From Stropharia rugosoannulata (taxonomy: Eukaryota > Basidiomycota > Agaricomycetes > Agaricales > Strophariaceae), in contig JANCIK010000006.1 in assembly GCA_028532985.1 (NCBI GenBank), positions 3,100,001 to 3,164,000 of the forward strand: 64,000 bases of DNA, written 5' to 3'. A program made the position numbers and the translations under genes. Positions 3,633 to 58,700 of this stretch are shown in pieces. The number at the start of each line of letters is the position of its first letter. Within the stretch, counting starts at the first letter, position 1. Below the pieces are notes generated by a model. The model was not told the origin of the DNA, did not search any database, and worked only from the letters and a program-made list of their open reading frames with translations.

Positions 3633-4299
3633 CCTGACGAATCTTCGGCTGACGAAAATGGGCGAGGTAGTTATATACGAATAGTGGTGGTTAGCGAAGA
3701 TTGATGGGCGCTGGTGGAGAGTCTGGAGACTGCGCAGGTGGCTTATATAGGTGAATCTCAACCCCATAACGCCATCTCGGAAATGATAAGATGCTGTCCA
3801 GATTTGGTCTCCTGATTCATTGCGGGCTACGGCATATTCCCATTGGCTTTCACCCGACCGGGCCATGTGCATGAATGACGATCTTCAATGGCTAGGACGG
3901 CTCCACAGATGGGCGGCGCGTCTCTACTGCAGTGTACAATACACGACGACCAACACTTCTAGCGTCTGCTGACGCGCATCCATATTCCACACCCAGTGCG
4001 CTCTTTCATCATGGCGGCCACTTTCACTGCTTCAGTGCGCAACGTGCTGCACAATAGCTATTGCATTACAATGGACACCTCGACGAGATATCTACAATTT
4101 TTTTCGAGTCATCTCTGCCACTATTATGACTTATGTACAAAGAATTAAGTGAATATATAACCCAATACTTTACACAAATTCAATGCAAATCAGGGTCTAA
4201 CTGTCTAAGCCAAAAGGCGCCATAAGTATGGTATATGCATAATTGCCCGTAAATCTCAATAAAAAGCTGTACGCCTGCGGTAGCCACGCCTGTCCAAAC
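3633..4299. other. Intergenic between inhibitor promoter and VPS9 gene 3' end
   Basis: Holds the 5' leader and promoter of the inhibitor gene and, below 4300, the 3' region of the VPS9-domain gene. An open stretch upstream of the inhibitor ATG is in frame with it, but no conserved residues are seen, so I treat it as leader. Confidence 0.5.
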
Positions 4300-10324: not shown

Positions 10325-13300
10325 TTATAAGCAGTCCATACGAAGATATTTACGGCTGTTATACGTTGAAATAAGGGAGTCATCCGATGGCAATGACAGC
10401 TCCAGACCATCGAAGAGAAGGAAGTAAGAGTGGCCGTCGACTACCGTAGTCCTCTCCTGAAGCATCTCTGAGAATGCGAGATCTTCAAGGATTGTGTCGG
10501 AATCATAAGGCGTCGCTGACTCGCCTTTAACGGATTCATGTTCGATGATCCGTTCATAGAGGTCGTGAACAGCGGTAAGAAAAGATGCAACATTGAATTT
10601 TACGCCTTTCTCAAATATTCCAGGAGGCTGCGGGTACTTGGGCACAGACAGGTCAATGGATGTCTTTTTGGCTTTCTGTGGACCGCCATCCAAGCAGTAG
10701 CCCTTATTATGATTGGCCACGCCAGCACGGCCGTACATTTTGGTGCAGCAGCGTGTGCATGTAGCACGCTTGCATGGCTGGATGCATTGAAAATTACGAT
10801 ATGAGTTGATGATCAACTGTGGTACTAAATCGGAGCCACGTACCTTCTTCGCCGCAGCTTTAGTCCCATCAGCCTCAGCGGTGTCTGCCTCAGCAGCATC
10901 GCCGTCTGCCTCTGTGCATTCCTCGGTGCCCAATTTCGAGGGTTCAGCCTTGACCTTCAGTGCGGGTACGGCCTCGCAATGGGTCTTCCAGAAGTGATCA
11001 CTACCAGAGCCTAGTAAATGCAAAACAAATCAAGATTCAAGCATTAGTAGACGCCAATAGACGGACATTAATGAACTTGAACTATAAATTGCGTACGTGA
11101 TGTGTAATCCTCCTTTGCAAGTCTTGCGATGACAATATCCTCGATAGCCGATAGCTTCTTCTGCAGGGCTTGCGGGTACTTCTTGATAAACAGACTTGGC
11201 TTATCTTTTATAATAACTTGTAGTCGATTATTGTATACCTCTGTTGCTGTAGCCCACTGTTCCATAGTCATCGCGAATGTCGTCCATTGATACTCCTTAC
11301 GCATATCCATGAATAAATAAAACTCTTCCTTGGTTTCGATGGAGAGAGATCGGATATCAATAGTTGTCCCAACAGAAAAGAGGAGCTGGGAACGTGTCAG
11401 CCCTTTTGCTTGAAGGTTAGCCGGAAGGGGCAGTCGGCGCTGCAGTAGCTCCGCAGTCGTGAGCTGCTTGGCTGATAATGATCCCGCTGTCTTCAAAGAG
11501 CTGCCTAAGACTTGTAGCCGCTGCACTGCTGATCCATTTTCTGAGTGGGATGTCCCTGATTTACGACAGATCGGCATAAATGCCCAGGATGCTTGCATAA
11601 CCTTGCCGCCAGCTGCGTCTGGAGCGACGATGTCTGAGGTGCTTTGAATGACATCCTCTGATGGCTCGCAATTCATGGCAGCAACCGCTTGCATAGGCGA
11701 GCCCGAATCAGAGTTATCTATTATTATTGCCTGGATAATTATAGAATACAGTATGGTCAACACATAGTAGTAGTAAGTGAATAAATGCTTACGTCTGCAC
11801 TATTGCCTGGCGTGAATGGCCTAGCATCATAGTGTCTTCGTTTTGGGCCAGGCGTGTTGACTCTGTTGTCAGCTGAGTGGGATTCAAGTTCACCAACCTC
11901 AGCCGGCGTATCGGCTTGGTTGGGTTCCTTCCTCTTCTCACCCCGTGTATTGAAGTCAACTCTCGCCAATGGGGCATTAACAAGGCTTTCGTCTAAGCCC
12001 AGATTCTGGAGAACATGGTACGTTGCCGCTTCTTCTAAATCCGGGTCATGATTGTCTAGTAGCAGATCGTACCCTGGATCTTCGGACTCAGCCAATGTAT
12101 TTTCAAGTTCACCTGCAGTAACAAGGCCGCCGTATGTTGTTGAGTGATGGGACTCAACTAGTCCAAAGGTCTCTGAGTCACATACGGCAGGCAGGATGGG
12201 TCGAAGTTTAATCTGAGCAGTAGAGTTGTGGTCAGTCTTTTTGGAGATTAGTAGATTAGATAGTTGAGCGATGTAATTGACGAGGTGGACGTGGTGCGAT
12301 CCGTTCAATGATTGAATGAACTCTGGAAGGTTTATATCTCTGTGCTTGGTTTCTACCCGTGCTGTACCTATGCGGATGTTTCGGCGATGGAAATGATCGT
12401 GCGCAAGTGCGGTGTACATCTCCAATCCACTCGAGAAGGAACGCTGGATTGAGTTCCATCCCTTATGCGAGCCCTCGATGCGGCTTCCATCCAGGGCAAT
12501 ATCTTGAATATTATCAGGGCGAGCAAGGCACCCTTTATGAACGTGCTCAAGCTGGTCGGCATGAACCTTAATATGAACCATAATGATTAATATAGCTTGC
12601 TAAAACAGGGTGAGAGCATAACTTACTTTGGGTGCAGCAGCTGACCATACGCTGCCTTTACGCGCCCACTTGCTATAGGCATCAGCCAATCTGATTCCCT
12701 GCTCTTCTCGGCTCCAGTAAGTTGCCGGTTGGCCTTTCTTGGACGATGTCTTGATTATTGCATCCTTGATGGAGGCAAGAACTTGCCGTTGAAACGGGTT
12801 CTTAGTGCCACGGTGGATAACTGCACCGTATCTAGATTGAATAATAATCACTCGCAATTTAAGTATACAGATGTGTGCAGGAATAGAACTTACCGCCTAA
12901 TGAAATGAAATACGTCAAGGAACACTAAAATTCCTTTACCAAAAGCCTGTTCAATGAAGCGCTGCACAGTGCAGCAATTATCTACGATAACTGCAAGAGC
13001 TTTGGCGAGTTCCATAAAATCAAGACGTCCTGTGATGCCGGCTAAAAGCTCCTGTATTTCTATGGGCGATGCTGTCATACAATACCTCTGTAATGCATAC
13101 AGTGCCGCGTCAGATCAATTTATTTACAGATACTTTATTTAGCAATTACATACCCATGCAAGGCCCTCGTTAAGCTCGTTCAAAGCACTAAGAATACCAC
13201 CGTTCATTGGACTTTCACGCCGCTTGTCTTTAGAGACAACAGTTGCCTTTGCTGCGGACTTGAAGGTATTGTCTACAGAAATAGACTTGGCTAACAACGG

Positions 13301-14543
13301 TATTATTAGAACGTAGGTCGTGCTCCAGAAATAATGTGTGTAATGCGATGCGCTTACCCCCTCTTGTTTTGCCATAGTGTGTAGACTCATTCTGCCTGCC
13401 TCCTGTTCCAGTAACAAAATCAAGATAAACCTCTGTAACAAAATCGTTAGTAATAGGCGCATCGTTGTAGTTTTTTGGATCAGTTGGAGTCGAGAACGGC
13501 GTAAATATGCGGGCGGTCTGGTATGAATGGCTGTGTGCAGCCTTAAAGTGCTGTAAGTACTCCATAAACCGCTGCTGGTACTCAAGTAAATGAAGCTCTA
13601 AATGGCAGAGAATTAATATTTTAATTCAAATCGAAAATAATCGCCTACGTTTGATGTGTTCTGCAAGACCAGCAGATGTAGAAGATAACCGAAATTCGGC
13701 TATTAGCTGGTATAGCTCATGACTAACTGCTGCGCGTTTGAAAAAGTACGGTATACTGTCTGCAGACGCATAACCCCAGATTAGCCTAGCCACGGCAACC
13801 GTTACAGCCACTTACTTGGAATTCTCCAGCGCTCCCACTTATCCCAAAAGACGCAGTTGGTCGTTGCAAAGCAAAATCCTGTTTTACTTTTAGAATCTGC
13901 GACTTGGGCGTCTGCTGCCTTGCACGACTTGCAGCGCAACTGATAGCCAATTGTGCGTTCATTCACCCTCAGTCCATATACATCACGCGCGCCAGTGGCG
14001 TTCCAGCTATCCCATAAGGTATCCGAAGAGTCGCATTGCGGACATTTGCCAGTTAGTGCAGTCGGATAGAACACCCAATGAATGACGGTGATGGGTTTGA
14101 TGTACGCAGTTTCTGGGATAATTTTTGGGGTGGCGTCTTGTCTCCAAATGTGCATGTATGTTGGAGGGACAAATCGAGGACCTAGAAGGGGGATACCCCG
14201 GTTGTTGATGAAGAGTTTTGCATCCTTCTCTTTTGACTTCTTGTTCACAGCCAATATACCTCGTAGGTAATTGGTGTACTCAACCACAGCGGCTTCAAAC
14301 TGAAGCTGAATCTCTGGCGTGGTCCTATTGTCCTTGTTGGATTTCCACGAGTTCACCCGCTTCCCAATCTGTGAAAAATACGCCGTCAGCGCTCCGCTAA
14401 ACAGTTCTCAGCCTGATATTAAGTTGGCTCACATTGTCCGCCCAATCTTTCTCAAACTTAGCTTTAGCTGCCTGGGTAGGCTGTGCTGCTTTGAGAACGG
14501 CCAAGATCGTTGCGGGCTCGAATACATCTCCTCTTTGCGACAT
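10325..14543 (-). CDS. Large DDE-type transposase with two cysteine clusters (DUF6729-like)
   Basis: About nine to ten short-intron exons splice in frame from MSQRGDVFEPATIL (14543) to RKYLRMDCL. The N-terminal part carries a zinc-binding cluster (GKCPQC ... LRCKSC, ~14050-13910) followed by FWDKWERWRIPS. The core then shows SVDNTFKSAAKATVVSKDKR (first Asp), IVDNCCTVQ and VFLDVFHFIRRYG (second Asp) and IALDGSRIEGSHKGWNSI (Glu). That order suggests an RNase-H-like DDE nuclease of the kind I associate with fungal DUF6729/KDZ-type transposons. The C-terminal exon adds a second Cys cluster (PCKRATCTRCC ... GYC). Every splice I tried keeps frame, so it may be active. It lies head to head, 770 bp away, with the TET/JBP-like gene, which suggests both belong to one element. 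The family name is from memory and uncertain; the transposase call is firmer. Confidence 0.7.
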
Positions 14544-15313: not shown

Positions 15314-16162
15314 ATGAGCAAGGAAGGTATGTATTCCCTATTAATAGATGCTGTGCAGACTCAAGCGCCGCTTCCTTCGAGGCAGCTCAGGTCAAGGTGC
15401 CAGTGGTGGCTTCAGCAATAGACAGATGCTCCCCCATTTTCTGCGACATCGACTTTGCGGAATTACTGTACTCTGCAATTGATGCAGCAGATACGGATGG
15501 GGAGCTACTGCCGAGTAAGTAAACTAGCCGTCTTTGCCATCTGCACAGCTAGCTCACTTGCCTTAGATGCCGTATGCAGTCACTCTGAATCAACCCAAAG
15601 CGCAAAGCGCACCCAAACAGCTGAGTATTATACAACGCAGACAGCTCAGGATAGCCGCCAACCCCGTCAAAATAAAAGAAGAAGCCGTACTAGGGCTGAG
15701 AAGAAGACCAAAGAGGGGTACACCGCATCTGGCAAAGTAGCGGAAAGGCTGATACCAAAGGCATCCCCCATTCAGACGAAAATCGATGCAGAAAAGTTGC
15801 CTGTAGCACAAGGGGCGTACACGGCTTTGAATAAGCCCATCCTTCCCAGTGTAAACAAGCCGCCTAATATTGCAAAACTGGTTGAGGAAGAGGGATTCTG
15901 CTATGTACCAATCGATACAACCAAGAGGCAAGCCCATTTATGCCACAGTGTAGCCAACCCACAGCACTTACAGGTTACATCTAGGGATGACACGCCTTGG
16001 CCAATCCTGGACAAGAACAGACGCATTATCGCATACATTGGATACCCGCCCAGCAAGAAAGACTACGACCGCGATATACATGAGCTCTTTGGCATAATTA
16101 TAGATGAGTCGAGCGGTGCATTTAGTGCAAATGAGCTTCGGCACAAGCGAGGGGAATTTCAT
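15314..16162 (+). pseudogene. TET/JBP-like 2OG-Fe(II) dioxygenase gene, 5' part, interrupted by transposon
   Basis: Exons 15314-15326, 15386-15514 and 15567-16162 join in frame. They give the N-terminal ~246 residues of a fungal TET/JBP-like (2OG-FeII_Oxy_6 type) protein: MSKEAQVKVPVVAS, a basic Arg/Lys-rich middle, then DTPWPILDKNRRIIAYIGYP, IHELFGI and ELRHKRGEF. The RxxRRG(D/E)F-type motif is where members of this family normally run into the VxFG segment of the oxygenase fold. Here the frame instead enters the inverted repeat of an inserted transposon and stops at 16205-16207. The matching 3' part begins at 27932. TET/JBP enzymes oxidise 5-methylpyrimidines in DNA. Without the 3' part, which holds the iron ligands, this piece cannot be catalytic. 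The start codon is inferred from the first in-frame ATG that splices. Confidence 0.8.
16161..16162. repeat. Left target-site duplication (AT)
   Basis: The AT immediately before the left inverted repeat belongs to a CAT codon of the host gene. Counting it as one copy of a 2-bp duplication is the only reading that restores the host frame. Confidence 0.65.
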
Positions 16163-16181
16163 CAGGAAAATCACTTTTTTG
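16163..16181 (+). repeat. Left terminal inverted repeat of the Plavaka element
   Basis: Sequence caggaaaatcacttttttg; it matches the reverse complement of 27911-27929 at 18 of 19 positions, with one T/A difference at the ninth base. Confidence 0.9.
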
Positions 16182-16462
16182 CCGAGAGCTATTTAAAGAC
16201 ATTTTAGTAACTTTTAGTCCATCGTTTCAAACTAGATTTAATTAAAGCCCCAATCATATCTTTAAATAGCTTGATAGGTCTTCGGCAGTCTTTTTAGCCT
16301 TGCCTTAAACCAAGTATAGCTTTGTAGGTCTCTGTAGGTCTCTTTAGGTCTCTACAAGTCTTTTTTATGTACATTTTCTTATAACCATATAAAACTTGTA
16401 CATTCCACTGTAAAACCATAAATTCTATAGCTATAGGGTAAATTCTAATCTAATTACAAAAA
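16182..16462. repeat. Left subterminal repeat region of the Plavaka element
   Basis: AT-rich and without coding potential. Three closely spaced aggtctct/aggtctc copies lie at ~16325-16360, followed by acaagtctttttt. The same words recur at the other end of the element, as expected for transposase-binding subterminal repeats. Confidence 0.55.
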
Positions 16463-17706
16463 CTAACTAAAGAAAAGTTGCAACTGGTGGTCATTTCTAT
16501 GCAGGTCTTGTCGGGCTCTATTATACAAGTTGATTGGTCGGCAAACCCACCCATTCCAACTCTGGGTATTCTGATCTAATACTTGTCGTTCTGCTAGAAA
16601 CTGTATGCCATCACTGTAACTTTGATCGTCCTTTTCATGCTTATCCTGGATTGTCAGAAAGTAGACTCGTTCCAGTTGAGGCATTGTCGGCGACCAAACA
16701 ACAGACACAAGTGAGGAAACAAAGTCCCTCATATAACCCATACTAGGATTGGTGTCGTACATATGGTAATGTAGCAACCGAGGAGTATAGATAATGACCG
16801 ATTTCAGAAATGAAAGACGACCTAAAGCAGAGGCCCAGTCTCTAGAACACCATGGATATAGTCCAAGACGATTATCCTAATATAAAGAATATGAGTAAAG
16901 ATAGGGTAACATAGAAGTATACAACTAACCTGTATCGGTAGTATTGGCATACAACAGTCATATATAACCTGAAGGTTGACTAAATGGGGACCCAATGAAT
17001 CGACCCATTTATCCAAAACCTCCGAAACCAACCAAGCAACATCACCACAGTGAATTTGTAAGGCTTTTACTTGCATATTGGAGAACATAATCGCATAGAG
17101 TTTCACGATTGTATTCTGTTGGTTGTTGACTCTGGGAATTCGGAACTGCAATGCCCAAATGTTAGCAAATGCATTGGTGCAGCTGGAAAGGCGATGCTGT
17201 CGGTAGAAACTAGTAAAGTCTTCACAGAATTGGAGCTGGGTTGCATATTGGTCCAGTGATGTCAGCGAAGGCATAGTGTTTCGGCTTGCTAACCAAGCCT
17301 TATATCCCAACTGCCGAAAGACACCTCCTGACTTGTAGCTAGGCAGCTCCCAAAACAAAGCTTCTAAAATAATATCCCGAAGCTCAAAGGGAACTATTAC
17401 ATTTCACTACATAAGAATGTATATCACAATCCAAAATAAATACAACATACTTTTCGTCCATCCAGGAGCAATAAGCTCCTGAATCTCTTGCAGTGTTGAG
17501 GATAATATGTATAGCCATGAAAACATATAAGCTATAAGGTGAATACTATGTATTCCGACTAATAGCAGCAGATACGATCAGTAAAGCTTATATTGAGCTG
17601 GCATATAAACATACACTTAGAAAACAGTTCAAAATACACCTGGTGGGTTTGCCGACTAGCTACTATGGGCATTTTGATAGAAAGACAAGAAGTTGTTGTA
17701 GACATT
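16463..17706 (-). CDS. F-box/LRR-like protein carried by the Plavaka element
   Basis: The secure part is two exons: FELRDIILEALFWELPSYKS ... NLQVIYDCCMPILPIQ (~17385-16930) and DNRLGLYPWCSRDWASAL ... LHRNDHQLQLFFS, ending at 16463. The pattern (LR.IILEAL, then an alternation of LQ/LE and TP lines, W..L..L..V.I.TPRLL) resembles fungal F-box proteins with degenerate leucine-rich repeats, which act as substrate adaptors of SCF ubiquitin ligases. A first exon could start at MSTTTSCLSIKMPI (~17706), but I could not join it unambiguously. No role in transposition is known to me, so it is probably passenger DNA. The F-box assignment is weak. Confidence 0.4.
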
Positions 17707-17907
17707 GTAAGAAATGTATGGGTCGATTGAAACAGCACAGAATATAGTAAGCCTACAGCGAAAAACATTTACTGTTTGTGTAACTATAATGATCACCTGA
17801 TTATTTACCCAACTTCGCTATACCAGTACATAATGGGTATCGTTCGCAACCATAGTACAATAGTAGAATGTACTTTGTAAATAATAATGACTAGGAGCTT
17901 TAGTCTA

Positions 17908-19632
17908 CTAATTATCGCCTTCGTGATTCAAAGGCCCTTCAGCTTCAACTTCATCAACCATATTCTCAAACTCCTTTAGGTTTACCTTTCCCTCACAATA
18001 CTTCCTCCAAGCTGCTGCTAAAGTGTTTGAAGTGACGATAGCAGCGACAAGCTGCTGGAAATCAGGGTCTTCAGTGGTCGGATCAACATTGGGGACTCCT
18101 GTTCCATGAAGCCTTTTAGGCTGCCAGACAATACAAGTGTTCGTTGCTTGCTGGATACGAATCCCATATTCTGGAAGAAAGAAGTTTCCTCCATATGACA
18201 CACAGTTATGGGAACGATGCAGGGTAAGCATTGCTCCATATGTGTGGGGGTGACCTTCCTTATGCATATGCCTATAAGTTAAAGTGGATGATCAGAAATG
18301 GAGATATAGCGACAAGAGAAATATACCTTGAATAATTTCTTGTGATAAAAGCTCCTGGTGGGGCAAGACCAGTACCAAAGAAATCATATGACTCATGGGG
18401 CAGAGACACAGTATACTTTGTAACATCGGTAGTTGGAGCCTCCGAATCACCTTCTTTCATTGTCCTCACCGATGATTCTTCATGGCACTCCTGGTAGTTG
18501 TTACCTTCTCCATTGTTTGAAGGAATTTTAAGCACCTTTGAAAAGTTCTTGATATCAGTCGTCACCTCAGGAAGCTGTTTCTCCATAAGCTGCCATATAA
18601 AGGCAAACAAATTGGAACCCTCGATGTTGGCCTCAACCCTTTTATCGTCCGAAAGTTTCTTCTTTGATGCGACGATGTTTCGGACCCAGCCAAACTCGCA
18701 TCGGCTTCTGGCACCTGCAGACCAACCAAGCTGAACAAGCTTCCCAGGATCTTCTTTCTATAAAAAATATTAGTATAAGTTACAAAGACAGTAAACAAGA
18801 ATACCCTAAGATTTCGGCGAATGTCAGTCTGAAACTCGGCAGTATCCTTCGCCCATTTGAGAGCACCCTTATGCTTGCAAAAGCCACGAATAGCAACCCC
18901 AACAATTTCGCCAGTTTCAGAGTCTTCGAGAATCACATTCTCATCGGGACCAATGTCCAAAGAAAGTCTAGAAGGATCAAGCAGATGTAATGGCTTTCGA
19001 GGAATCCTAGCATCGGCCTGTTTGCCTACTGTAAAATGGTCCCTCCATTTGTCCATGATTTCCTGATTCTCGGTGATGATATGCATAGGGGGGGGGTAGT
19101 AGTCGCTTTCAGCCAGTTTCTGAACCTTTACCCTCTTGATGCCTTTAAGAAACTCGTCCTGATCCTTGTTAGTCCAGTTAAGTCTAGTTGCTTTGGTAAA
19201 GTTGGATTTTCTCTTTTTATACGACTTTGCTGCAGTTTTTCCAGCTTTATAGGCAGCAAACAAAGTAGGGAAGCGTGTATGGCGAGGTGGAAGAGCAGAT
19301 GTGATTGTTTCATATATGCTAGGAAAGGAGCTGCCAGAGAAATAGACTGCACCGAGTTCAGAGGCTTTGGCAGAAGCTGCAAAGGCAGCTCTATTATTAG
19401 ATTTGAGATAGCGAAGAGCAGTAGTGTCAGATTCTAGAAACTGAAGTAAGGATTCCAGGTCTTTCTTGGAAATAGTAGAAACAGTAGATTGGGCAATGCG
19501 AGCTTTGGCTGGCTTGAAAGGCGAGCCATTCTGGCGATGTGGTGGTTGCTGATGAAGATTAGATAAAGAATTAAATTTGGCGATCAAGCTTGAACATCGA
19601 TCAGGTAAGCGACACCAGCCAAATACCACCAC
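17908..19632 (-). CDS. 2OG-Fe(II)-oxygenase-like protein carried by the Plavaka element, 5' end unresolved
   Basis: Three exons join in frame. The first (~19600-18810) has a basic region (KSYKKRKSNFTKATRLNW) and the segments DENVILEDSETGEIVGVAIR and FQTDIRRNLR. The second begins KEDPGKLVQLGWSAGARSRC and ends GAFITRNYS. The third reads RHMHKEGHPHTYGAMLTLHR, then YGGNFFLPEYGIRI, IVWQPKRLHGTGVP. The alternation H.HKE, GG.FFLPEYG, W....LHGTG resembles the double-stranded beta-helix core of fungal TET/JBP-related oxygenases, with HKE as candidate H-x-E/D iron ligands and the His of LHGTG as the distal one. No start ATG is visible, so an upstream exon must exist. An oxygenase inside the element that disrupts another oxygenase gene is notable. 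The fold call is moderate; the substrate is unknown. Confidence 0.55.
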
Positions 19633-21252
19633 TGCCCTTACTCTTTCTGTCCTGTTTCTGTCTTTTTACTGGCTTTGGGCCCACTCAACCCTTTCCTGCT
19701 AGTGGATCTAAAGACATTGGTAATACACTTCTTACAGGCTATAGTGGGGTTTTAATCTTGCTTAAGTCATAGTAAGATGTGGATTGCTAGTGTCTGGGAG
19801 ATAACCATAGTGCAAAGGGTGTAGGCTGGGGATATAGCATTCTTCTCACATTTGCACCTTCAAGAACATCTTAGTCCTCTGCAAACCATCTCCAAGATCA
19901 TGCCAATCCATCCTGTACTAGACAAGTACCATCTTATAGGTGTCAAGTGCCCTTAGGACACAATTTTCGTCATATATCTGCCAATAACCAACCAAACAGT
20001 ATGATTTTAGCATTTCCTGATTCGTCTCATTAATACCTATCCAACAGTACCATTCATTGCGCGATTTAGTGGGTATAAAGGCGATGTCGATACAGGTGTC
20101 CTCCTTCCTCTAGATGGGACAGATTAATTCATAGGTGCGCTTCCAGCTGTCCTGAGTCCTTCAAACTTTGGGAACACTTACTGAACTACATTAGGTACCT
20201 GCCTCTACGACGGCTTAATTTATGGAGCAACCAAGCGTCCTGTACCTCAAGTTATTGTCCAACTTCGGAGTTTTGAGGTATCTCATTGATTCTGACATAG
20301 GTTCGTCTTCCATCTCTTCAATTCTTGCAATGCTGAATTCACCTTGATTGTAGCTTTCCAACGAGCCCTCAAACGCTTCATATCATTGCCTGGAACCCGA
20401 AATCACTTATGTGCTCCTCCTCCTCCTCCCTCCCCCAGGTAAAGTACTTCATATCTTGGGTTCCTGTTCGTATTTTTACCTAATTCTTTTTAGAGTCTTT
20501 TACTACACATAGTTATAGACTATTCGTCTAGGTTTCGGCAGCCGATAAGCCCTCAATATCCGACCTCCTTAATGACCATATGGCTACTGCTGCAGAGTTA
20601 AATATCATCCCCTTCCTTCAATTTTCAACAAAGGCTTTCGCAACTTGGCATGTTTATTCACCATCTATGTGGGGTTTGAACGCGTTCCTTACACAAATTT
20701 TGAGATTCCTGGATGCCTGTGAGTAGCCATGTCCTCCTCCATCTCCCTGTCTTGGACTAATTTTGCTCTAAGTCAAGAACAACTTCCTCAATTGCCTCGC
20801 GGTTTTTTGGAGCATCTTCATGTTGATTCAAGCTTTCTAACGAGCCCTTGAACGCGTTATTCCGAGCAGAATTATCATCTTCATAAGCGCCCTATCAATG
20901 TTTTGTATAATATGTATCTAGTCTTGTTAGGGTCAATATATAACTTGTTTTGTATAAGAATTTTCAATAGTACTTGTTAAATGGCAAATGCATTTCATGT
21001 ATTTTGCATACCAAATCAATCAATATTACATTCACAACTCTGCCCAAAGTTTCCTGTTGTAGTCCGGAATCATTAACAATAATCACATGATTTATTTACC
21101 AGCTTGAGACCTTTCACTTGACTTCGCTGAAACCCCAAATTTCATGCTTCCCAATAGTGATGAGGTTGAAAGCTCAGTTTACTATGAGCAAGAAAGAGTA
21201 ATTACTATAACCTTGCCATTCCCGAAACAGCCTGCTAATTACTAGTACTTAT
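19633..21252. other. Long stretch of the Plavaka element without recognised genes
   Basis: About 1.6 kb lies between divergently arranged cargo genes. It has no long open frame. An imperfect direct repeat built on agctttcyaacgagccct occurs at ~20351-20376 and ~20830-20855. It should include promoters in both directions and possibly missing 5' exons of the flanking genes. No C2H2 finger exon, as often precedes Plavaka transposases, could be found. Confidence 0.45.
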
Positions 21253-21819
21253 AGTATTTGCTTGCTCCTGCTACTTCCGATGATGCAGCTCCTGAGAACA
21301 TTGACTCTTCCGACTCTTCCCAAGTATGTATTTCTCTATGTCTATTCCGAATCTACTAAGTCCTACCAGCATTGTCTGTCATTGGATTATGCAATACTCC
21401 ATCCTGAAGACTTCTCAGATCGTAGTGAATATTACAATGCTTATACTTTGAAATATAATAGATGGCCCCAATTTTCGGATGAACAGGTATGTACTATTTC
21501 AAAATCGCACTTATACAAACTGCCTCCAAACTGCTATTGCTAATATACTATTCATACTATTTAGCTTACATTGCCATATTGGCCCAGACCAGCTGCCAAC
21601 AAAAGACTAAAGGCCAAATGTATTGAGCTGCAGCAAACGACACTTCGGTACCATCGGCGATTGTATCGTAAGTCAAAAGCTTTGGAAGCCATTTATCGCC
21701 ATAAGAGCAATAAAAGAGTAAAGCTTCTTGCATTGCTTCGACAAAAGCAGCTTCTATTAGCAAAAACGATCAGATATGCAAAGAAGACCTTAGCTTACTC
21801 ACGGAAATATACTATATAA
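21253..21819 (+). CDS. Small basic coiled-coil protein in the Plavaka element
   Basis: I do not recognise it. The best-supported piece is FSDRSEYYNAYTLKYNRW spliced at a gtatgt...tttag intron (~21487-21564). It joins LTLPYWPRPAANKRLKAKC and a very basic helix (LYRKSKALEAIYRHKSNKR ... KTLAYSRKYTI, stop at 21819). An acidic N-terminal exon (APATSDDAAPENIDSSDSSQ) may precede it. The 5' structure is unresolved. The Lys/Arg-rich helix could bind DNA, but that is inference. Confidence 0.4.
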
Positions 21820-22209
21820 ATAGGTATGTTAAATCGATTTGGTGTATATGGTTGGCAATCGTGAGCTTACAGCTTTTAATAGCACAATTGTAATTGGTAC
21901 TTTAGATATATGTGTGAGAATGCAACCGAGAGTTGTACCAAAACCCCCACTATCTCTCTTGGAGTCTGATAAGCAATGCCCAACTTTGAATGCCCTGCTG
22001 GATGCGAAAGATTTTTCAAAACCTGGGGTGGGGTAAATGCCCATTTAACCTCATCATGATCTTGCTCCTGGTATATGGAGGAAAAACTAGAGGATTTGAA
22101 TGCTGAAAACACCTACGAGATACAAGAAAATGCCCCAATACAGTACGACCTTGGATCCAACGACAACATTGCTAGCAGTGCCCTGAATACTGGACAGCAA
22201 GCTAGTAAC

Positions 22210-25089
22210 CAAACACCGAAGAATTAGATGGCGAAGATCTTGAGGACTTTTTTCATGAGGAATTCGACAATATTGTAGATGAGTTTGCTCTTATTCCAGG
22301 TCCTGACGACTACTTGGAGGGTGAGGCAGGCCCAGGTCCTCAAACTGCTGCTTATCGCAGTAGAGTGCTGTCAATGAAGCGATTACTAGATGATGATGAT
22401 GACGATGAAAGGATTGAAGAAGAGCATCCTACTGCTGGTAGAATTCTTCGATATCAAGCAACCAGTAACCCACATATCCACACTTTGGATGGCGATGGTG
22501 ATGTTCATATGCTTCAAGAGGGAGTGGATCCCAAGTTTCATCCCTTTCATTCAGAGCTAGATTGGAAAATAGCTCAATGGGCAGTTAACGATGGGCCAGG
22601 CCATAATGCATTTGACCGATTACTTAAAATTCCTGGGGTAAGTTCAATACTACTAATACAATTGTATTTACTAACTCAAACTATCAAGGTTGTCGAAAAG
22701 CTTGGCCTCTCATACCATAATATTCGGGGTTTGCACAAGAAACTTGACTCTATGCCCGAGAAAGCAGGTGAATGGAAGACTCGCAAACTAAGATTTGCCG
22801 ATAAACCTAATGAAGTATATACTATTCGGCATCGTAATCCAATACAAGCCATCGAGTCTCTTTGGAAGGACCCCCATCTGTTGCCTATGATGAAATTTAA
22901 GCCTAAGAAGGTGTATACTAGTCCTCGTAAAGATGGGCGAATATTCAATGAAATGTGGACAGGTCAATGGTGGAGTGTTCTTCAGGTATGTTATATTCAA
23001 ATTGCAATTCTTGATATAGCAAGTTGTATTTACTTCACTTTAGAGCCGACTTCCAGTTGGAGCTACTTTAGCTCCTGTCATAATTGCTACAGACAAAACC
23101 CAGTTAACCCAGTTTTCAGGGGGAAAATCAGCCTATCCTGTTTATCTTACGATTGGAAACATCCCTAAAGCAACAAGAAGAAAGCCCTCTTCCCATGCTA
23201 CCATCCTTATAGCCTACCTTTCAGTTGACAAAATCAACCGATCACAAATGAGTGAAAATGAACACCGATCTAGAGTTCAAAGGCTTTTCCATGAATCGAT
23301 GAAAATCGTTTTAGAACCTCTCATTAAAGCTGGAAATGAGGGCATAGAAATGGCAAGCTCTGATGGTGCTACTCGTCTTGTTTTTCCTATCCTTACTTGC
23401 TATGTTGCCGACTATCCTGAACAATGTCTTGTTTCTTGTACGAAATATGGGACTTGTGTCAAATGCAAAGCAAAGGCCAATAATCTTGGAGATGAAGCAC
23501 TATCGGAGCTCAGAACTCAGCGATGGACAAAATCCACCATTGAAGAGGCCAAACTTTATTCGGGAGACAACCAGAACCAGTTTCATAAATATTGCATGTC
23601 CCATAATGTTGCAGGCAGTGTATTCAAGCCTTTTTGGGAAGACTTTCCTCTGACCGACATTCACCAGTCATTAACACCTGATGTATTACACCAGCTTTAT
23701 CAAGGGGTCCTAAAGCATCTAATCTCATGGTGTGGAAAGCTTTTACAGAAAGGAGAGCTAGATCGGAGAATTCAAAGTCTTCCACCTTCCTTTGGAGTTC
23801 GCCACTTCAAAAATGGATTTACATCTCTCTCTCAAGTAACTGGGCCTGAACGGAAAAACATGGCTAAAATTCTTCTAGGCTGCTTAGTCGGAAGTATTCC
23901 AACTCAAGCTGCCCAGGCAATTACAGCACTGCTAGACTTTATCTATATTGCCCAATATCCCACCCATGATACAACTACTTTAGAGTATTTGACCGATGCT
24001 CTGAAGCGGTTTCACCAACACAAAGCATACTTTCTCAATGTTGGTGTACGAGACAACTTCAATATCCCCAAGTTTCACTCTTTGCTGCATTATGTTGATT
24101 CTATCAAGCTCTTTGGGACAACAGACAACTATAACACTGAGATGTTTGAACGACTACACATCGACTTTGCAAAGGATGGTTGGAGAGCAAGTAATCAACG
24201 GGATGAGTTTCCTCAAATGGTTACTTGGCTTTCACGACAGGAAAAAGTTACTGGCTTTGAAGCAAATCTACAAATGAATACACCATTAAATAAACCACCA
24301 AAATCAGTCAAATCCCTTGCAAAATATCCCAATTATCCTAAAAGAATGCTTTCTCTAATCCAGGAGAAGCATAATGCTCGTGGCTTTATTCACTCACTGA
24401 AGGTCTTTATTAATGGTCTCCGGTCCCAGCCTTTATCGCAACAAGCTTTAGCTGAGGCTACTTTACCCTTTACACGAGTTGATGTCTACAACATACTTCG
24501 CTTTAGTCCTACCAGTCTTGATGACGATAATATAGGGGAAAAAGACTCAGTGAAAGCTATTCCAATATCACAACAGAACAGTTTAGGAAAATTTGATACT
24601 GTTATAGCTATGGTTAATGATAAAGCAGAGTCAACTGGGCTTATAGGTATGTAGATTATATGTTGCTATAGCACTTCTAATTCTTTTAATCAAGGCACAA
24701 GAATAGGAAGAGTAAAGGTTATTTTTACTCTTCCGAAGGTTTTGGATACTCGCTTAGGGCAACAAGATGCCCCTCACAATTGGCCAACTTCGCCATTAGC
24801 ATATATTGAGTGGTACTCACCAATACCATCCCAGCCATCTGTTTCTAATGGTAACATGTATCTAATCAAAAAGATGGAACCTTTAGCAGGTGCCAATCCG
24901 ACAGGTACTCAAGCCTGGTGCTCAATTATTCCAGTCTCAAATATTCGGCAAAGTTGCATGCTATTTCCAGTATTTCCCAAGCTTGCCCCAATGCCTAATG
25001 AATGGACATCTGATAATATACTTGATAGATGCACATCCTTTTTAATTAATAACTGGTCTAGTAAATATGCATACCAAACTATATGGTAG
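22210..25089 (+). CDS. Plavaka transposase of the inserted element
   Basis: Exons join in frame from an acidic N-terminal part (EELDGEDLEDFFHEEFD, ~22225) to NNWSSKYAYQTIW (25089). Family landmarks in order: HSELDWKIAQWAVNDGPGH, VVEKLGLSYHNIRGLHKKL, MWTGQWWSVLQ, then after the intron at ~22986-23042 SRLPVGATLAPVIIATDKTQ, SGGKSAYPVYLTIGNIPK. Next come SSDGATRLVFPILTCYVADY, a Cys pair (YGTCVKCKAKA), LTPDVLHQLYQGVLKHLISW, NTEMFERLHIDFAKDGW and a C-terminal LAYIEWYSP. The conserved Asp in the DG/DYPEQ region, the Asp of TPDVLHQL and the Glu of E.LHID fit an RNase-H-fold nuclease. No frame break is seen, so the element may be autonomous. The first exon, probably holding a C2H2 finger, is not identified. 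It is 58-59% AT, more AT-rich than the second copy at 55.8 kb. Confidence 0.85.
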
Positions 25090-25273
25090 AGCTGTACTCG
25101 GTAGTCGCTATCTTTTTATATTATATAAGCCATTCCAGCTTAGTCAGACCGGAAATAGTTGCTCGTATCGTGTCTTTCCCTTCGTAAAATATACACCTGG
25201 CAATTACTTCCTGCTTATAAGCATTCATTTTTGCAAGCTTACTCATACTGCTTTCTATTTGTTTTCTATCCCT

Positions 25274-27206
25274 ATGGCCAACACCAGAAGCACTACCTCC
25301 CAAGCGAAGTCTGGTTCCAGCAAGTCGGCAGCATCGAAAAGGAAGCCAAGAGCTTCTAACAAGGGAAAGAATTTAACTATAAATGATATACCTCAGGACA
25401 TGATACAACAGATACTCAAGCAGCATGCGAGTACTTCAAAGCAAGCTGAGGCTGAGAAAGAAGAAGGTATGTATTTGTCTCCTTGCTGAAACGATACTAA
25501 TGGGTTTGGCTAGAGATTACTGCTCGCAACAAAAGACTTATGGGCGAGGAAAACGAGAATGAAAAAGACTCTGATGGTAATGAAGAAGACAGCAATAGAG
25601 CAGCTAAACGACCAAGAGTTGACAATCTCGACAGGGAAGAACTCGACATAGGCAATCAGGTTTTTGGCAAAGCGACAAATACTAACAGGCACGATGGGGA
25701 TACTACTGACGATAGTTTGGAAGATGGGGAAAATGAAGGCAATGAAGAGGATCATGACGATGGGGTTAATGATATTCCTATGGCCAGAAATGAGGTATGT
25801 TCTCTACTAGTACTATCGGTATATGCTATACTTATTCTTCTTATCGTATATAGATTATTATTTTATCGGATTCTGAGCATAAAGTAAGCACTTTGTAGCT
25901 ATTCAATATAGAACTAACCTTGAATAATATTCTATAGTCATCGAAGAGGCTTGGGACTCGGCGATCCCAGGAGTCTGTGGCAACCTCTTTCAAGAGCTCT
26001 GCACCATCGTCAACAACCTCCTCTAAGACTTCTGCTTCGTTTTTGGAAAGTCAGAACAGTGGGTTTTCCTTGCACTCAAAGAAGGTGACGAAGCATAGTT
26101 TGCCACCATATGTTATGGATACAGCTATAGAGGCGAAGAAGTATCTTCGCTTTAACATGGTGTATAGCCCAAGCTTCTGGACTGCTGGGGTAGGTCCAGA
26201 CCGAATCGATGCTTGCTGGACAGCTTTCTGTGAAGCTGCTAAGCAAGGCAATAATACCCCCCTTGTTATCCAGGTTTCAAAGGAAAGAGCTACAAAGCCA
26301 CTCGTCATTCGCTATGTGAGTACAAGTTATATTATTTCATTTGGTTAAGTATTTTGACTAGTACTAGATCTCCTATGCTCGTTCACAATTCATGAGCTCG
26401 GTAATTACTGCTGCCAGTGCAACCCAGAATGCATATGGGCTTGGTATCAATAAGAAGAAAGATCAAGAAATTATCACCTGGCTCCTGGAAAAGGCGAAGT
26501 TCATGTACGATCAAGTCGATACAACTGTAAGTAATATTTTTTCATAATTTAACATACTAATAGGAGTATTAGGCCAAGACGACTGGAGGACAGCCATTCA
26601 AGTCAGAGAAGATGCTTCATATAATTGAAGAGTTGTGGTTCAAGACTGCAACACGAGCAAATAGTTCGACAACTCTGGTTACTCGGCAATTAGCAATAGA
26701 CAAGGCATTACCACCATCGATGTTTGCGATTACTTTAGCAGCTGTATGTTTCTATTAATGTTACTTTATCGCTAGTCTATCCTTACTCACAATTGGTTTA
26801 GATGGAGCATTCGTTACAAGAGCTCAAGGAAGGCCATGGTACAAAGAGTCGGAAGAATTTTGACGAAACGACTATTAGAGTTTTGTACAGTGCTTCTGCT
26901 ATTACTTATTACCTTGCACTACTAATCATATTGCTATAGATATAGTCGCCATATGGGTAACTGGATGGTTCTCGAGCAGAAGTCTAGTGGATGGGCTTTA
27001 AAGTGGAGGCAAGATGCTTTCCAACAGCTATGGTAGGTTTAATTTGTTCGCTGGTTTTTTCCCTTACTAATTATGTTTATAGCTCGTCAGATATGTTTAT
27101 TGGGTATGACGAAACAGATGATTTAGCAGATTTTGATTTCGGAACTTTGAATGCGACTATACCAGTACTACCAGAGGCAGAGCCAGCATTACCACTGGAT
27201 TTGTAG
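25274..27206 (+). CDS. DUF6532-type protein carried by the Plavaka element
   Basis: Starts MANTRSTTSQAKSGSSKSAA with a basic, disordered N-terminus, then an acidic run (ENEKDSDGNEEDS ... EDGENEGNEEDHDDG). The folded part follows: LPPYVMDTAIEAKKYLRFNM, SYARSQFMSSVITAASATQN (~26370-26430), FKSEKMLHIIEELWFKTATR, PPSMFAITLAAMEHSLQEL and RYSRHMGNWMVLEQ, ending LPEAEPALPLDL at 27206. The order R-S-Q-F, H-x-I-x-x-hh-x-x-x-WF, LAAxxHxLxEL, H...M is what I know as DUF6532, a family expanded in Agaricomycetes and of unknown function. Six or more short introns are used. It lies 185 bp downstream of the transposase on the same strand, so it may be a functional partner rather than random cargo. Confidence 0.7.
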
Positions 27207-27910
27207 TTCATACTATTATCTAGCCTTCTTTTATAATGCCTTCTTTTATAATCGTTCTTTTGATTCCCTGTATACTTATTTTAGATAAAAGGCGACATTT
27301 AATACACTATTTTGAGCGATTGCAGAGTCTCATAAGATCTCTAAATAGCTTTCTAAGGTTGCTAATGTGCTATAGAGAAGTATTTTAAAGATACTATGAG
27401 ATATCACAAGAGTCTTCTTTTGTACTCTTTTAGGTCTTTCTAAAGCTCTAAAAATGTTTATATTTTTTAAAAAAAGACATTATGTTGTGCCTTTATATCT
27501 TTAAGTGGGTTTATTTGTTTCTCTTAGTGTCTACAAAAGCTATTAATATGCTATATAAAGACCTTGTTTGAATCTTTTAGGATCCTTAAATATGCCTGAT
27601 AATGTATTAATGTGGTTTTTTTATATCTTTTAAATGTTTAGCAAGGTCTTTTATTATACTTTATTTGAAGCACTTGATGTCTTTTGATTGCTTCAAGAGC
27701 GCTTTAAATTACTTTTTTTTGCTTTTTTTTAAGAACTGTGATGTCTTAAAGTACACTTTTTATTGTCTTTTATTGCTTCATAAAGTCTTTTTAATGTCTT
27801 TTTAACTTTTATACCTGGAGACTTTGCTTTTTAAGTCTCCTAGAGACCCAGGTCTCCTGGGGTCTTTTTAAGTCTTTTTAAGTCTTTTTGAAAAATTAAA
27901 AGACTTTTTT
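27207..27910. repeat. Right subterminal repeat region of the Plavaka element
   Basis: No coding sequence. This is a T-rich region with many copies of words such as gtctttt, agtcttttt and aggtctcc, notably three agtctttt(t/g) units at ~27858-27892 and a palindromic gagacccaggtctc at ~27843-27856. It mirrors the left end and directly precedes the right inverted repeat. Confidence 0.6.
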
Positions 27911-27929
27911 CAAAAAAGTGTTTTTCCTG
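27911..27929 (-). repeat. Right terminal inverted repeat of the Plavaka element
   Basis: Sequence caaaaaagtgtttttcctg; its reverse complement matches the left repeat at 16163-16181 in 18 of 19 positions. It is followed by the right AT copy of the target duplication (27930-27931). Confidence 0.9.
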
Positions 27930-27931
27930 AT

Positions 27932-28689
27932 GTTCCTGCTGTGAACTTTGGGTTTACTTTGCCCAACGGCTTTGAAGACCCCATTCAGCTGTCCGAAAAA
28001 CATCATTCAGCCGCAATCAATCGCATTCGCGAGTCTGCGGGCTTCAGGCAGGTTTCAAGCCTTCAAAATGGTAAGTTCATCTGTGCAACCTTAGCATCTT
28101 TTGTCCAACATGCGTGAGCTCTCTAGCACTCTTTTCCTTCTGGAACCCGTTGGTTTATGCATATCAAAATCGCCGTGTAGAGCAAATCTTGGCAAACGAC
28201 GAAGGTCTCAAACGGAATGCTCCAGCTACCGTATATCCTACTGCCGCATGCAACATGCGGAATGTGTGCTGCTGCAAACATCGAGACACCCAGAACTGCC
28301 CCTTTAGCTGGTGTGCAATCACTGCTCTAGGGAGCTTTGACCATACAAAAGGGGGACACCTAATCCTGTGGGAGCTCAAACTTATTGTAGAGTTCCCCCA
28401 TGGATATACTATCTTGATCCCATCGGCAACTATCACCCATTCAAACAGCCCTGCTGCAGAGGGAGATGTTCGCGTCTCCGTTACGCAGTACTGTGCTGGC
28501 AGCATCCTCCGCTACGCCGATAACATGTTCAACACTGACAAGAATTTGCTCAAAAAACGGCCTGCTCTTCATGAGCAAAATGCACAGAATAAACGGAGTC
28601 GTTGGGCAGAGGCAGTTCAACTTCTATGTACCCTTGATAACTTACGTCAAAAACATTCAGTCACTAAGCTCCCAGAAATGTTTAACTGA
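27932..28689 (+). pseudogene. TET/JBP-like 2OG-Fe(II) dioxygenase gene, 3' part, catalytic core
   Basis: Exons 27932-28070 and 28127-28689 continue the frame broken at 16162: VPAVNFGFTLPNGFEDPIQL, then FWNPLVYAYQNRRVEQIL. The oxygenase core follows: CKHRDTQNCPFSWCAITALG (H-x-D iron ligands), FDHTKGGHLILWELKLIVEF, YTILIPSATITHSNSP (distal His) and EGDVRVSVTQYCAGSI (the Arg expected to bind 2-oxoglutarate). These are the defining motifs of fungal TET/JBP-like proteins, which oxidise methylated bases in DNA. Joined with the 5' part the coding length is 1,440 nt, exactly 480 codons including the stop, with no other damage. All catalytic residues remain, so inactivation is by insertion only. It ends 103 bp from the stop codon of the convergent nuclease gene. 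Confidence 0.85.
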
Positions 28690-28792: not shown

Positions 28793-30690
28793 TTAGGTCA
28801 AGTCAATTACTTCAGAAGAAGCTACAGTTAGGTCCATATCATCTTGAGGCGACGATGTTGTAAGGTCTATGACATCCTCCAGCTGAAGGTTCGACGTAGA
28901 GGGCAAAGATGGCCTGCTTCGCTTGGAGGAAGGAGGCTGTTCAAACGCATCATCGAGTCGGTCCAGAAGCTCGCTTTTTGCCTTGCCCTTCCCTCCCTTG
29001 TCTGCCGTATTCTTGCGCTTGCGCTTCCAGCCAGCCTCAGTCGGGGCAATGCGAAGGACTTCGTGAACAAAGTATTCATGGGGGAAAAATACGGCCGAGT
29101 CGCTCGGGCTGGAGATGTCGCCGATGCTAGGCTTCATCAACCGCATAAGCTCGGCTGTAGAGACCTGCATTTTCGGGAGCGGATCTTCTCCGTACATGCG
29201 AGCGTATTGACCTGTACGCCGCTCATAACCTAAGCGAAGGACGGTGATGCGCATGCCGTTGAGCAGGTTAAGGGAATATGAGCCCAGCATATGTTGCAAA
29301 GAAGACTGGTAAGATATTATTAGTTTAGTGAGCAGATTTTGAAAAACCAAAAACATACTGAGTATATCATTTGAAGACATAGTCCCTCCAGTATATACTG
29401 CTCAACCTTGCCCTTGAGTTCCCGCGGATCGTCCCAGTGGAAGTACTTGATGCAGTGTGCAGCAATATCCTCAACATCTGGGGTTAAAGCAGTCCAGTCG
29501 GTGTTGGTTGGCGCTCGAAAGCCGGGGGTCCACGACGTGATGGGCAGGACATAGAGTGAGATAGTCTCGTACGATGGGAATGGCTCCTCGATTTTAGACG
29601 AAAGTTTTTCATTGGCGGCTTTGCTGCCTCTGAGAAAGCCTTGAACATTGTGTCGCAGTTCGGTGCGGAGCTGACCACGCCACAGGGTTAAGAATCGCCG
29701 AAACGCAGCACGGCCATACACCAAGAAAGCCTCGCGAAGCATATCCCCAAATCCGCATCGCGCAAGGGCGAAAGCCGTGTGTTGACCAAAGCCCTCGATG
29801 CCTTTGTGGTAGTCTCCGCCGCAAAGTAAAGCGATGAGAAGGGCGCCGCCCTTGGAGAGTGGCAGGCCGGGATGTTGTGAAGGGGAACCGATGTCGTAGA
29901 AGTTGTACTCATCGTCAGATGAAGCACGATCGCCTGGAGTTCTAAGGAATGGGCATGAAGTCATGGTTAGCTGAACAAGGTGAGAAGGAGAAATGGCTCA
30001 CTTTTTAAGAATTACACCCGACCCAAAGACGCAAGTATCACTGTCACTGGTGATAATCCCGTCAATCAATCCGTGCTCTTGGAATGCTGCTAGTTCAGCT
30101 TCGGCTTCACCTGGAGCCTGTAAAATCAGGTTAGTACAAAATGTTTTAGCCTCTTGAGCGCCTACATACCTGATGGGCTTCATACCCAAATGCCCTGATC
30201 AAACTAACGGCTGGTATTTCCCATGAGATGGGCCGATGAACCATGCGACGATTCCGTTTGATAGTTTGGCGAGCAGGGCCATCAAACACAAAAATGAATA
30301 CAATTGGCATCTTGAGAAGCTCGGTTAAGCGCTTGAAGAAGATGTAGAAGGCGCCTGCTGGATAGTTTTGACCAGAGTGCGCACTTCGCGTTCGCCTGTT
30401 GTGTGCTGCACTGCAGCACTCGCCTATCCACGCTCTAGTAGAAGTGAATAATGGATATGTAATTTGCAGAGCAAAGACGTACCCCATGTCAACCCCCAAT
30501 GTCAAGACTTTGCGCCTCGCAGCTGTCTGGCCCTCTGCATCAGCCTGCTTCCGATGCTCGAACGCGCATACGTTAAGCGATTGAGAGAGCCTGAGCGGTT
30601 TGAGGATCTGGGTGGGGGATCATAGTTAGAGGAGAGCACAGCAGGAGATAAAGGAGGGAAGCTTACCTGCCATAGATTCACAACTCCCAT
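28793..30690 (-). CDS. XPG/Rad2-superfamily nuclease, GEN1/Yen1-like
   Basis: Begins MGVVNLWQ, the canonical start of the XPG N-region, and splices to ILKPLRLSQSL and TLGVDMGAWIGECC. Later motifs: FVFDGP (Asp), APGEAEAELAAFQ (the two Glu), TSDSDTCVFG (the two Asp), and GGDYHKGIEGFG, where the Asp is followed by the helix-two-turn-helix DNA-binding element. The full metal-binding set of structure-specific nucleases is therefore present. The C-terminal part is basic (GWKRKRKNTADKGGKGK) with two acidic EVIDLT/DVIDLTTSSP motifs that look like SUMO-interaction sequences. GEN1/Yen1 cut Holliday junctions and flaps during DNA repair in the nucleus; architecture fits them better than FEN1 (no PCNA motif seen) or XPG (no long spacer). 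Six or more introns. It ends tail to tail with the TET/JBP-like gene. Confidence 0.85.
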
Positions 30691-55788: not shown

Positions 55789-58700
55789 TTATGTGATTGT
55801 CGAAAAGGTAAAGCGGTCGAGGAAAGGGTTGACGTAGAAAGCTTTTGCGAGGTCTAAGACATTGCTTGATTTCCACTGGACTGGAGCCACAGGCCCAAAT
55901 TTTGGAAACAGATGTATACTTTGCCGGATAAATGTGATAGGGACAATGCTGCAGACGCGCGAATTGTTCTTGATATGAGGTGCAATGCGGTATAGTCGGC
56001 TGTGGCGATCCAGTCGCGCCTGGCTAAACGGTGTATACCATTCAACATAGGCCAAATGCTTGTGCTCGAAACCATTTGGGAACCATTTTGCGATGTGGTC
56101 GTTAGGAATTGTGAATATGCAGCGTACACGGCCTGCAGACCACCCTGTAATTACATTTAAATCACATTTAGCACGCTTATTGACAGATATTATCAGAATA
56201 AAATGTACCTTCAAGTCCAGATGCTCCACCATCGCCCACGTTGACCAGTCCAACATCAAATCGACCTGGAACCCTTTTCCCATACTTGTCCGTGCGCGCG
56301 GGTTCTACATGAATGGAGTCTACCACGCTGGCCTTCAGAGGATCGAGATTATGGACGTCGCGGCTGGTGAATTTGATGCGGTGGTATACAGAGATGCGAG
56401 TGAAGTTGAGGTGTATGGCATGAGCAAGCGTCTCTAACTGAGCATTGGACGAGACACTGGGATGCTGATACAATGCCACAAAACGCCGTAAAGCCCATTC
56501 AAAGTGAGTTGCGCCGTACTCTGCCCGGATAATAGCGAGGCTAACTCGCCGCTTAGATGGGTGCTTTGACATCTGCTGTTCACGGCGCGGGATTAGTGAG
56601 ATCAGAGGCCTTTCAACACAGGGCCCGGGGTTGTCCGTGGCGAGCCGACGTCGAATATACTTCTCGTGTAAACGAATTTTCTCTTGGCGGTCCAACCATA
56701 GGGTCATCTGGCAGTATTCGTCCTTCCGGTTCGTGGCGGCGTACGCATGTTTGGCCATATCGATATGTAGACGTTCCGTAGTTTCCGTATTGAAGTTGTC
56801 CAGCGTACCAAACAACTCAATGAAAAAACGATAGTGACCCATAGCGTGCATTTTTGGCATGTCGAAGTGCTCGCGAATACCCATGTCCACAAAGATATGC
56901 CGGGAGGAATGAAACTCAGCAAGAGCCTCATCCAGAGAGTCCAGCGTAGCTGAACTATGAATGGGATAGCGCGAAAGTTGAATGAAATCAAGTAAGGCGC
57001 GCACGACTCGAATAAGAGGGGCTGAAGAGATACCGTTTGGAAGGGAAATGTCGACAAGAATACCCAAGATGAAGCGGGCAATCTGTTCATGCTCCGTTCC
57101 GGTGACCCTGGACATGTGCGTAATCCCGTTCATGAACAGTCGAATGTGATGATTGGGGGGTAATCGACGACACCTCGCATCGATCTCTGCATCGCCGCAT
57201 GCTTTTCGTAACCACGCAAGGACATGCTTTAGTATGCCCTGGAACAACTGATGCAAAATATCCGGTGTAATTGCCTGATAGATGTTGAGAAATGGGAGTT
57301 CCTCCCAGAATGGGCCTTGAACTGGCTTGATACCGGCCGCGGAGCACGCGTTGGCGAATATGGTGCACCCTTCGTCGAACTGGCCAAGTGCTTCCAGGAT
57401 CGGTTCAATGTCCCGCGGCGGTAAGATACTGTCCAAGTTCCCTATACCTATTCGCGACGCAGGGCATATCGGACATTTGCCTACTCAACCGCAGTTAGCA
57501 GCCGAAATGTGATCAGAATGTAGTATGTGTAGTACGTGCCTGTATTCACTAAAGTCACTAAGACTTGCTCGGGGTAATCACCAACAAAACTGGCATAAAT
57601 GGGGAAGCAACGGCGAGCAGCGCCATCACCACTAACAAGAACAATTCCCTCTCGTCCAGCGTCTTTGAGAGGGGCCAAAATCGCCTTCATACAGAAATGA
57701 AAGAGGTTTGCCATGCAGCGGCGACGACTAGACTTATTACCAATATGTTCGAGTTTGGTGGTAGGCAAGTACGCAAGCAGCACTTGACCTTGTCGAGAAG
57801 GCTTGCGTCGTATGTGTTTGGGCAAGTTTCCAATAGTCATGTACACAGGATATGCCGTTTTGTTGCGAAACTGCGTGAGCTGGGTTTTGTCCGATGAAAT
57901 GATGATCGGAACAATAGTACACTTCTGCTCGTTTGTAGCTGATGCGACTTCGGCCTGGTAATGATTAACTACAGAATAAAATACAACGTAAACTGAACCG
58001 TACCTGTTTTCGCCACCACCACTTTCCGGTGTGCATATCGTGGTACAGCCGAATCGTTTGATCTTCATCAGCATACTGACGGACAGGTTCAAATATTAAG
58101 TCTTCCGCGAAGTCCACATCCCCCCAAATCGCTTGTAGGCATTCAATGATATTGCGACTGTAGAATTGAAATGCCTCGCCTTGAACAGCACATTCATGCC
58201 TTGTAAATTCAGGACGCCCCGGCAGCTTATTATCAATAATGCGGTTCAGCTCATCCGAGGTCTTGTAGGACAGCCCAAGCGCTTCCTGAATCTGTAAGAC
58301 AGCAGGTGAGATAAATAGATAAATATTTAGCCAGCTGAACATTGCTCACCCCCGGTATGGTAAGCAAGTCCGAAAATGCTGTTGACCCAGGACCTCGCAG
58401 TTTCGCCCACCGTGCCATTTCCCAGTCGAGGCGTGACTGGAAAGGCGCCCATGGGTTATCTTTTGAGCCGACAATTGACATGTAGAGATCGTCCGGTGTC
58501 TCATGGTACCGTAAGGCTTGCCCGGCTAGAGCAGACGGATGTCGATCAGAGTAGCGCACGGTTACCTTGGGTTTGACACCAGTACCATCACCGATAAGTA
58601 TGCGCTCTGATTCCCTCCGGTGTTCATCACTGATAGCACCCCGTTCGGATAACAAGTTGTCGTCCTCATCGGGCACAGGTACATTTACTGTAGGCGCATT

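Follow-up and report, generated by a model that had tools for sequence, protein, structure and literature searches.

TET-carrying transposons are already known among the Plavaka elements: the parts of the report by Kojima (2025, PMC12730594) that bear on our locus describe TET-positive PlavakaB elements from two species, Agaricus bisporus and Gymnopus confluens, with CATCA...TGATG ends, target-site duplications of 2–3 bp and enzymes of a PE type, which are marked by an HxE motif and show a faint HHpred link to CMD1. The enzymes of known structure that matter here are CMD1 from Chlamydomonas (PDB 7cy4) and CcTET from Coprinopsis cinerea (PDB 7vpn, 7w5p and 8jkk). In this work we analyzed a stretch of 64,000 nucleotides from Stropharia rugosoannulata (contig JANCIK010000006.1, here C6, positions 3100001–3164000), called the window in the following, together with the genome it belongs to (48 Mb in 20 contigs). 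In the window an apparently PlavakaB-like element with its transposase and a distant TET-type cargo gene has very probably inserted into a resident TET/JBP-like gene and thereby inactivated one paralogue of a larger family. A literature search judged on titles and the openings of abstracts found no published report of a TET-carrying element within a TET gene, and with this element the TET-carrying Plavaka elements gain a young case that is present in multiple copies.

Results and Discussion

The inserted element and its borders

The element covers positions 16160–27932 of the window on the plus strand (11,773 bp) and was delimited by its Pfam Plavaka match, its genome copies and a comparison of its ends with 10 other copies. 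It begins with the terminal inverted repeat CATCAGGAAAATCACTTTTTTG (16160–16181, plus strand) and ends with its counterpart on the minus strand (27911–27932), both being 22 nt long and matching at 21 positions, and it is flanked by the target-site duplication TT (16158–16159 and 27933–27934), which was recognized from the other copies and from the paralogue alignment. The original prediction, made from the letters of the window, had rightly seen inverted repeats, although with a length of 19 bp and 18 matches, and had placed the element at 16163–27929 between two copies of AT. To settle the borders nine left and ten right ends could be read, from 10 of the 18 other copies. All nine left ends start with CATCAGGAAAATCACTTTTTTG and all ten right ends finish with CAAAAAAGTGTTTTTCCTGATG, each at an unrelated site, and CATCAGG and CCTGATG are the termini at every end read as well as in the window copy. 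As CAT and ATG are found at the ends of other copies at unrelated sites they must be part of the element, which leads to the borders 16160–27932 and to TT as the duplication. The outer dinucleotides are equal in the window copy and in eight of the nine other copies whose left and right ends were both read, where they are CA, AG, TG, CA, AA, TT, TG and GA.

Removal of the element and one TT (11,775 nt) yields the expected empty site GGGGAATTTCCTGCTGTG and a host sequence that aligns to the paralogous loci L011 and L012 without a gap across the junction, reading RGEFPAVNFGF. The borders proposed before would join the codons CAT and GTT and leave two extra codons, HV, in the restored gene; these are absent from both paralogues and from all 18 homologues covering the site (19 were aligned, of which P0014 has unrelated letters there). 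That AT does stand beside the inner repeat on both sides speaks for these borders, but against the CAT...ATG ends of the other copies they are hardly conceivable and AT was ruled out as target duplication. A special meaning of an element length divisible by three, on which the prediction had put weight as an exactly restorable frame, was ruled out as well, since precise loss of the element and one duplication regains the frame at any length.

The interrupted host gene

The 5' part of the TET/JBP-like gene lies at 15314–16159 (plus strand), with about three exons whose splice sites are uncertain and which were derived from the homology to L011 and L012 and from a splice enumeration. Its 3' part at 27933–28689 (plus strand) contains the catalytic core with HRD at 28279–28287 and the distal histidine at 28438–28440, both intact and both downstream of the insertion. 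Both halves find their match in L012 and L011, in the right order, and occur together in homologues from the database; they thus represent one gene cut in two, as had been proposed. Also correct was the statement that the metal-site residues are kept, as HRD and the distal His and Arg are present and an open joined frame is possible. A coding sequence of 1,440 nt does exist but is not unique, since it results from seven of the 160 open splice combinations tried, which differ in length; one of these seven becomes 1,434 nt without HV when the corrected borders are used.

The assignment to the TET/JBP-like proteins, already made in the prediction, is borne out by a structure model. For the homologue P0001 a fold was predicted (mean predicted local distance difference test score, pLDDT, 79.3) whose twelve best PDB matches are CcTET, in first place with an E value of about 1e-13, followed by NgTET1, CMD1 and TET2 chains. 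The modelled fold as well as the HxD...H metal site would thus be common to CcTET and the host-gene family, and four of 19 homologues match Tet_JBP at E values up to 0.1 (best 9e-6). The closest database proteins, found with L012 as query, come from Crassisporium, Flammula, Hypholoma and Pholiota with 48–60% identity (seven named among the best eight), and a scan of viral contigs for homologues of the host gene gave seven pattern matches, none of which was confirmed. In a comparison of the catalytic exon with that of L012, differences fall on 57.5 of 427 nonsynonymous sites and on 108.5 of 119 synonymous ones, and from these proportions (pN 0.13 and pS 0.91) it follows that the gene was earlier kept by selection. 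As to the two closest paralogues, the compared exons of L012 are open, and L011 carries a deletion of 4 nt within its catalytic core.

We propose that the element, equipped with a transposase and a distant, PE-type-like dioxygenase of the TET group, entered the coding region of the resident gene, presumably through ordinary DNA transposition. In doing so it would have duplicated TT and split off the catalytic core from the N-terminal part. As the insertion separates these two parts, the affected paralogue is probably inactive.

Transposase, copies and family placement

The Plavaka transposase is encoded at 22209–24654 (plus strand) in two open frames, which match positions 1–99 and 106–325 of the PF18759 profile (E values 1e-16 and 4e-87) and would be bridged by a putative GT-AG intron at about 22985–23043, found by eye. 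The predicted Plavaka nature of the element is herewith borne out. Including the window copy, the genome contains 19 near-full copies with 98–100% identity over a 1.7-kb transposase probe, so that the insertion is a genuine unit and not a chance arrangement. According to its transposase domain, the CATCA...TGATG ends, the 2-bp duplication and the HxE cargo the element can be classified as PlavakaB-like. Measured by the features described in the parts of Kojima's report used here, it is like the elements from A. bisporus and G. confluens in transposase, ends, duplication size and HxE cargo; in contrast to these elements, which stem from other fungal lineages, the window copy sits inside a TET/JBP-like gene and its cargo is frameshifted.

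The copies themselves are not uniform. In some of them the middle segment that corresponds to 1.15 kb at 19834–20987 is longer and cannot be aligned or is divergent; it measures about 2.25 kb in C1_241k, 2.6 kb in C10_931k and 5.7 kb in C12_423k. The family thus exists in several forms. An Rfam search of the sequence led nowhere.

The putative cargo dioxygenase

The original prediction missed a TET-like dioxygenase gene on the minus strand of the element (17908–19529, exons at about 19529–18805, 18757–18327 and 18271–17908). Its putative metal-binding motifs, HKE at 18264–18256 and a distal histidine at 18108–18106 (both minus strand), were read in the sequence and aligned on CMD1, and the end of the protein reads HKEGHPHTYGAML...GGNFFLPEYGI...LHGT. 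It therefore has HxE in place of HxD together with the distal His. Against PF20515 (Tet-like 2OG-Fe(II) oxygenase) the protein gave E values of 4e-4 for a part and 1e-3 for a longer query. CMD1 was the sole PDB match up to an E value of 10 among 177,635 sequences, at a faint E value of only 1.6; the alignment spans both metal-binding motifs and puts HKE over HLD and HGT over HGT, CMD1 having HxD where the cargo has HxE. Among the matches listed, 29 genomic positions including that in the window have the cargo, in part as fragments, with a weak match of 34% excluded.

Several results weigh against the reading of a TET-carrying element that destroyed a TET-like gene. One of the nine copies has unequal flanking dinucleotides (CA and TT), and the catalytic part downstream of the insertion could in principle still be expressed. 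On the side of the host, the reconstructed segment of the gene matched no Pfam family at an E value of 1, a search of the PDB sequences with its family profile brought up no TET chain, CcTET included, and the TET fold model was made from P0001 and not from the interrupted protein itself. The cargo scores 19–21 bits on PF20515, below the cut-off of 27, two protein searches gave no homologue of it, comparing its profile with that of the host family gave a negative result, and its frame is broken in six of the ten copies compared (the window copy and five of nine others). Together with the high E value of the CMD1 match, the results of these cargo searches would also agree with another 2-oxoglutarate oxygenase or even an unrelated protein, in which case the element would be a Plavaka of the ordinary kind that has no TET-type gene. 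We regard this as quite improbable, because two libraries point to TET-type enzymes, the sole PDB match is a 5-methylcytosine enzyme aligned on its metal ligands, and PlavakaB elements with such ends are the class for which Kojima's report, in the parts used here, describes PE-type enzymes, themselves tied to CMD1 by nothing more than the faint HHpred link mentioned above (PMC12730594).

Regarding the state of the cargo gene, three of the ten copies have it open at full length and a further one, which lacks 45 nt, also has it open; the frameshift in the window copy is located near the gene start. Since the window copy is young and its cargo is broken, a young copy does not require a working cargo of its own. 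The broken frames fit a product acting in trans or no need for a product, and they lower the case for a cargo acting in cis. If the cargo acts against 5-methylcytosine on the element family at all, it would have to do so also in trans, as many copies have a broken gene. Among the ten copies 35 nonsynonymous and 24 synonymous cargo variants were counted, compared to a neutral ratio of 2.6 calculated with a transition weight of 4 and with CpG bias left out (p 0.04), which may be taken as a weak sign of constraint at most.

Age of the insertion

The window copy has eight private substitutions, the fewest of the 10 copies aligned, and one private 3-nt deletion, whereas the nine other copies have 12 to 271 private substitutions, the high values taking in the divergent middle segment. 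Relative to the other copies the insertion is young, in agreement with the prediction of a very recent event. Such a young element could be present in one nucleus or in some cells only, in a polymorphic or somatic locus whose gene is still working, and transposon insertions and excisions are indeed mentioned for monokaryotic isolates of Marasmius oreades in the part of that report considered here (PMC9674265). The empty site looked for after the original prediction is however absent from this assembly, which may be one haplotype, and each flank is single-copy, so that we see a polymorphic locus as possible but doubtful.

CpG decay in the element family

The differences between the copies suggest a history of methylation. 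In the six most alike copies of the ten, CpG transitions make up 100 of 170 variants, with 100 transitions at 532 CpG positions versus 29 at 4,186 other G/C positions, and transversions amount to three at CpG and seven at other G/C positions. For all ten copies 208 transitions at 536 CpG positions stand against 176 at 4,183 other G/C positions, and CpG transitions then account for only 208 of 1,188 variants. The observed/expected ratio of CpG is 0.57 in the element majority sequence versus 0.89 in the remaining window. These figures come from the cargo-bearing family alone, and past CpG methylation followed by deamination of a family with a putative demethylase would be their simplest reading. 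As most differences between near-identical copies are CpG transitions, the cargo did not prevent decay of the methylation type, and the excess bears on the idea that a TET-type cargo lets transposons escape methylation.

One might go further and see rival demethylases at one locus, a TET-bearing family having disabled the resident TET/JBP-like gene and having spread despite its CpG scar and the cargoes broken in six of ten copies. We consider this scenario unlikely; if true, the carried enzyme would not prevent methylation of the element family and would act in trans, for just a short time when transposition takes place, or by way of mutagenic oxidised bases. For the insertion of a TET-carrying element into a TET-like gene, the disruption as such is ordinary transposon mutagenesis of one among many paralogues, and it is the cargo and the CpG scar that raise its interest.

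The genomic TET repertoire and other insertion sites

Counted among the matches listed, the host-gene family has at least 13 loci in the genome including the window, a number that takes in partial loci and loci with stops, which may be introns. Separate from these are the matches to Tet_JBP, 31 of 32 of which are above the cut-off; none of them lies at a host-family locus. With at least 12 other family loci and 31 Tet_JBP matches above the cut-off there is no genome-wide loss of TET-like genes, and the designation of the locus as a natural knock-out of a putative 5-methylcytosine oxidase was wrong or overstated. On the whole, the observations of the original prediction are partly confirmed and its interpretation is partly supported. 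Six exon matches to C5-methyltransferase domains are also present. One genome with three TET-like sets, namely the Tet_JBP matches, the host-gene family and the element cargo, offers a test bed, all the more as the decay of the element can be followed in several of its copies that are nearly identical.

Other copies of the element are also located in long open frames: in C1_82k the element is bordered on each side by 529 codons without a stop, C10_931k has 482 on the right (28 bases of its left flank were covered) and C12_2464k has 183 and 90, while the remaining six of the nine copies have at most 77 stop-free codons at their flanks. Insertion into long open frames is therefore not special to TET genes. 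The products of the other interrupted frames gave no Pfam match above the cut-off. Another copy of the element ends about 1.8 kb from a TET-like locus (L048 and L025/L026, C11:278700-292000). The idea that the element prefers TET genes was dropped, as one TET-like neighbour is not improbable by a rough estimate and other long frames were hit.

Neighbouring genes

Convergent to the interrupted gene and not part of the insertion is an XPG-like nuclease gene at 28793–30619 (minus strand), which shows a weak XPG_N match (E value 0.065). The same convergent arrangement of an XPG-like and a TET-like gene is found at three loci on C6, C9 and C1 (the window, L047, and L011 with L045 and L046), which suggests a joint duplication of the pair. 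As the neighbour of a base oxidase, a flap-type nuclease might be its partner in repair, and we found no literature joining TET, JBP, XPG, fungi and transposon. The XPG-like gene on C1 (L045 with L046, C1:263000-275900) is itself interrupted by about 11 kb of inserted DNA, whose flanking direct repeats look like long terminal repeats by eye, and its TET neighbour has the 4-nt deletion. Just upstream of the TET-like gene in the window, large exon-like open frames at 10325–14407 (minus strand) show a zinc-ribbon-like cysteine pattern and match no Pfam family above the cut-off. Positions 55789–58251 (minus strand) encode a second transposase of the Plavaka type, which seems to belong to another family (PF18759, E value 4e-55).

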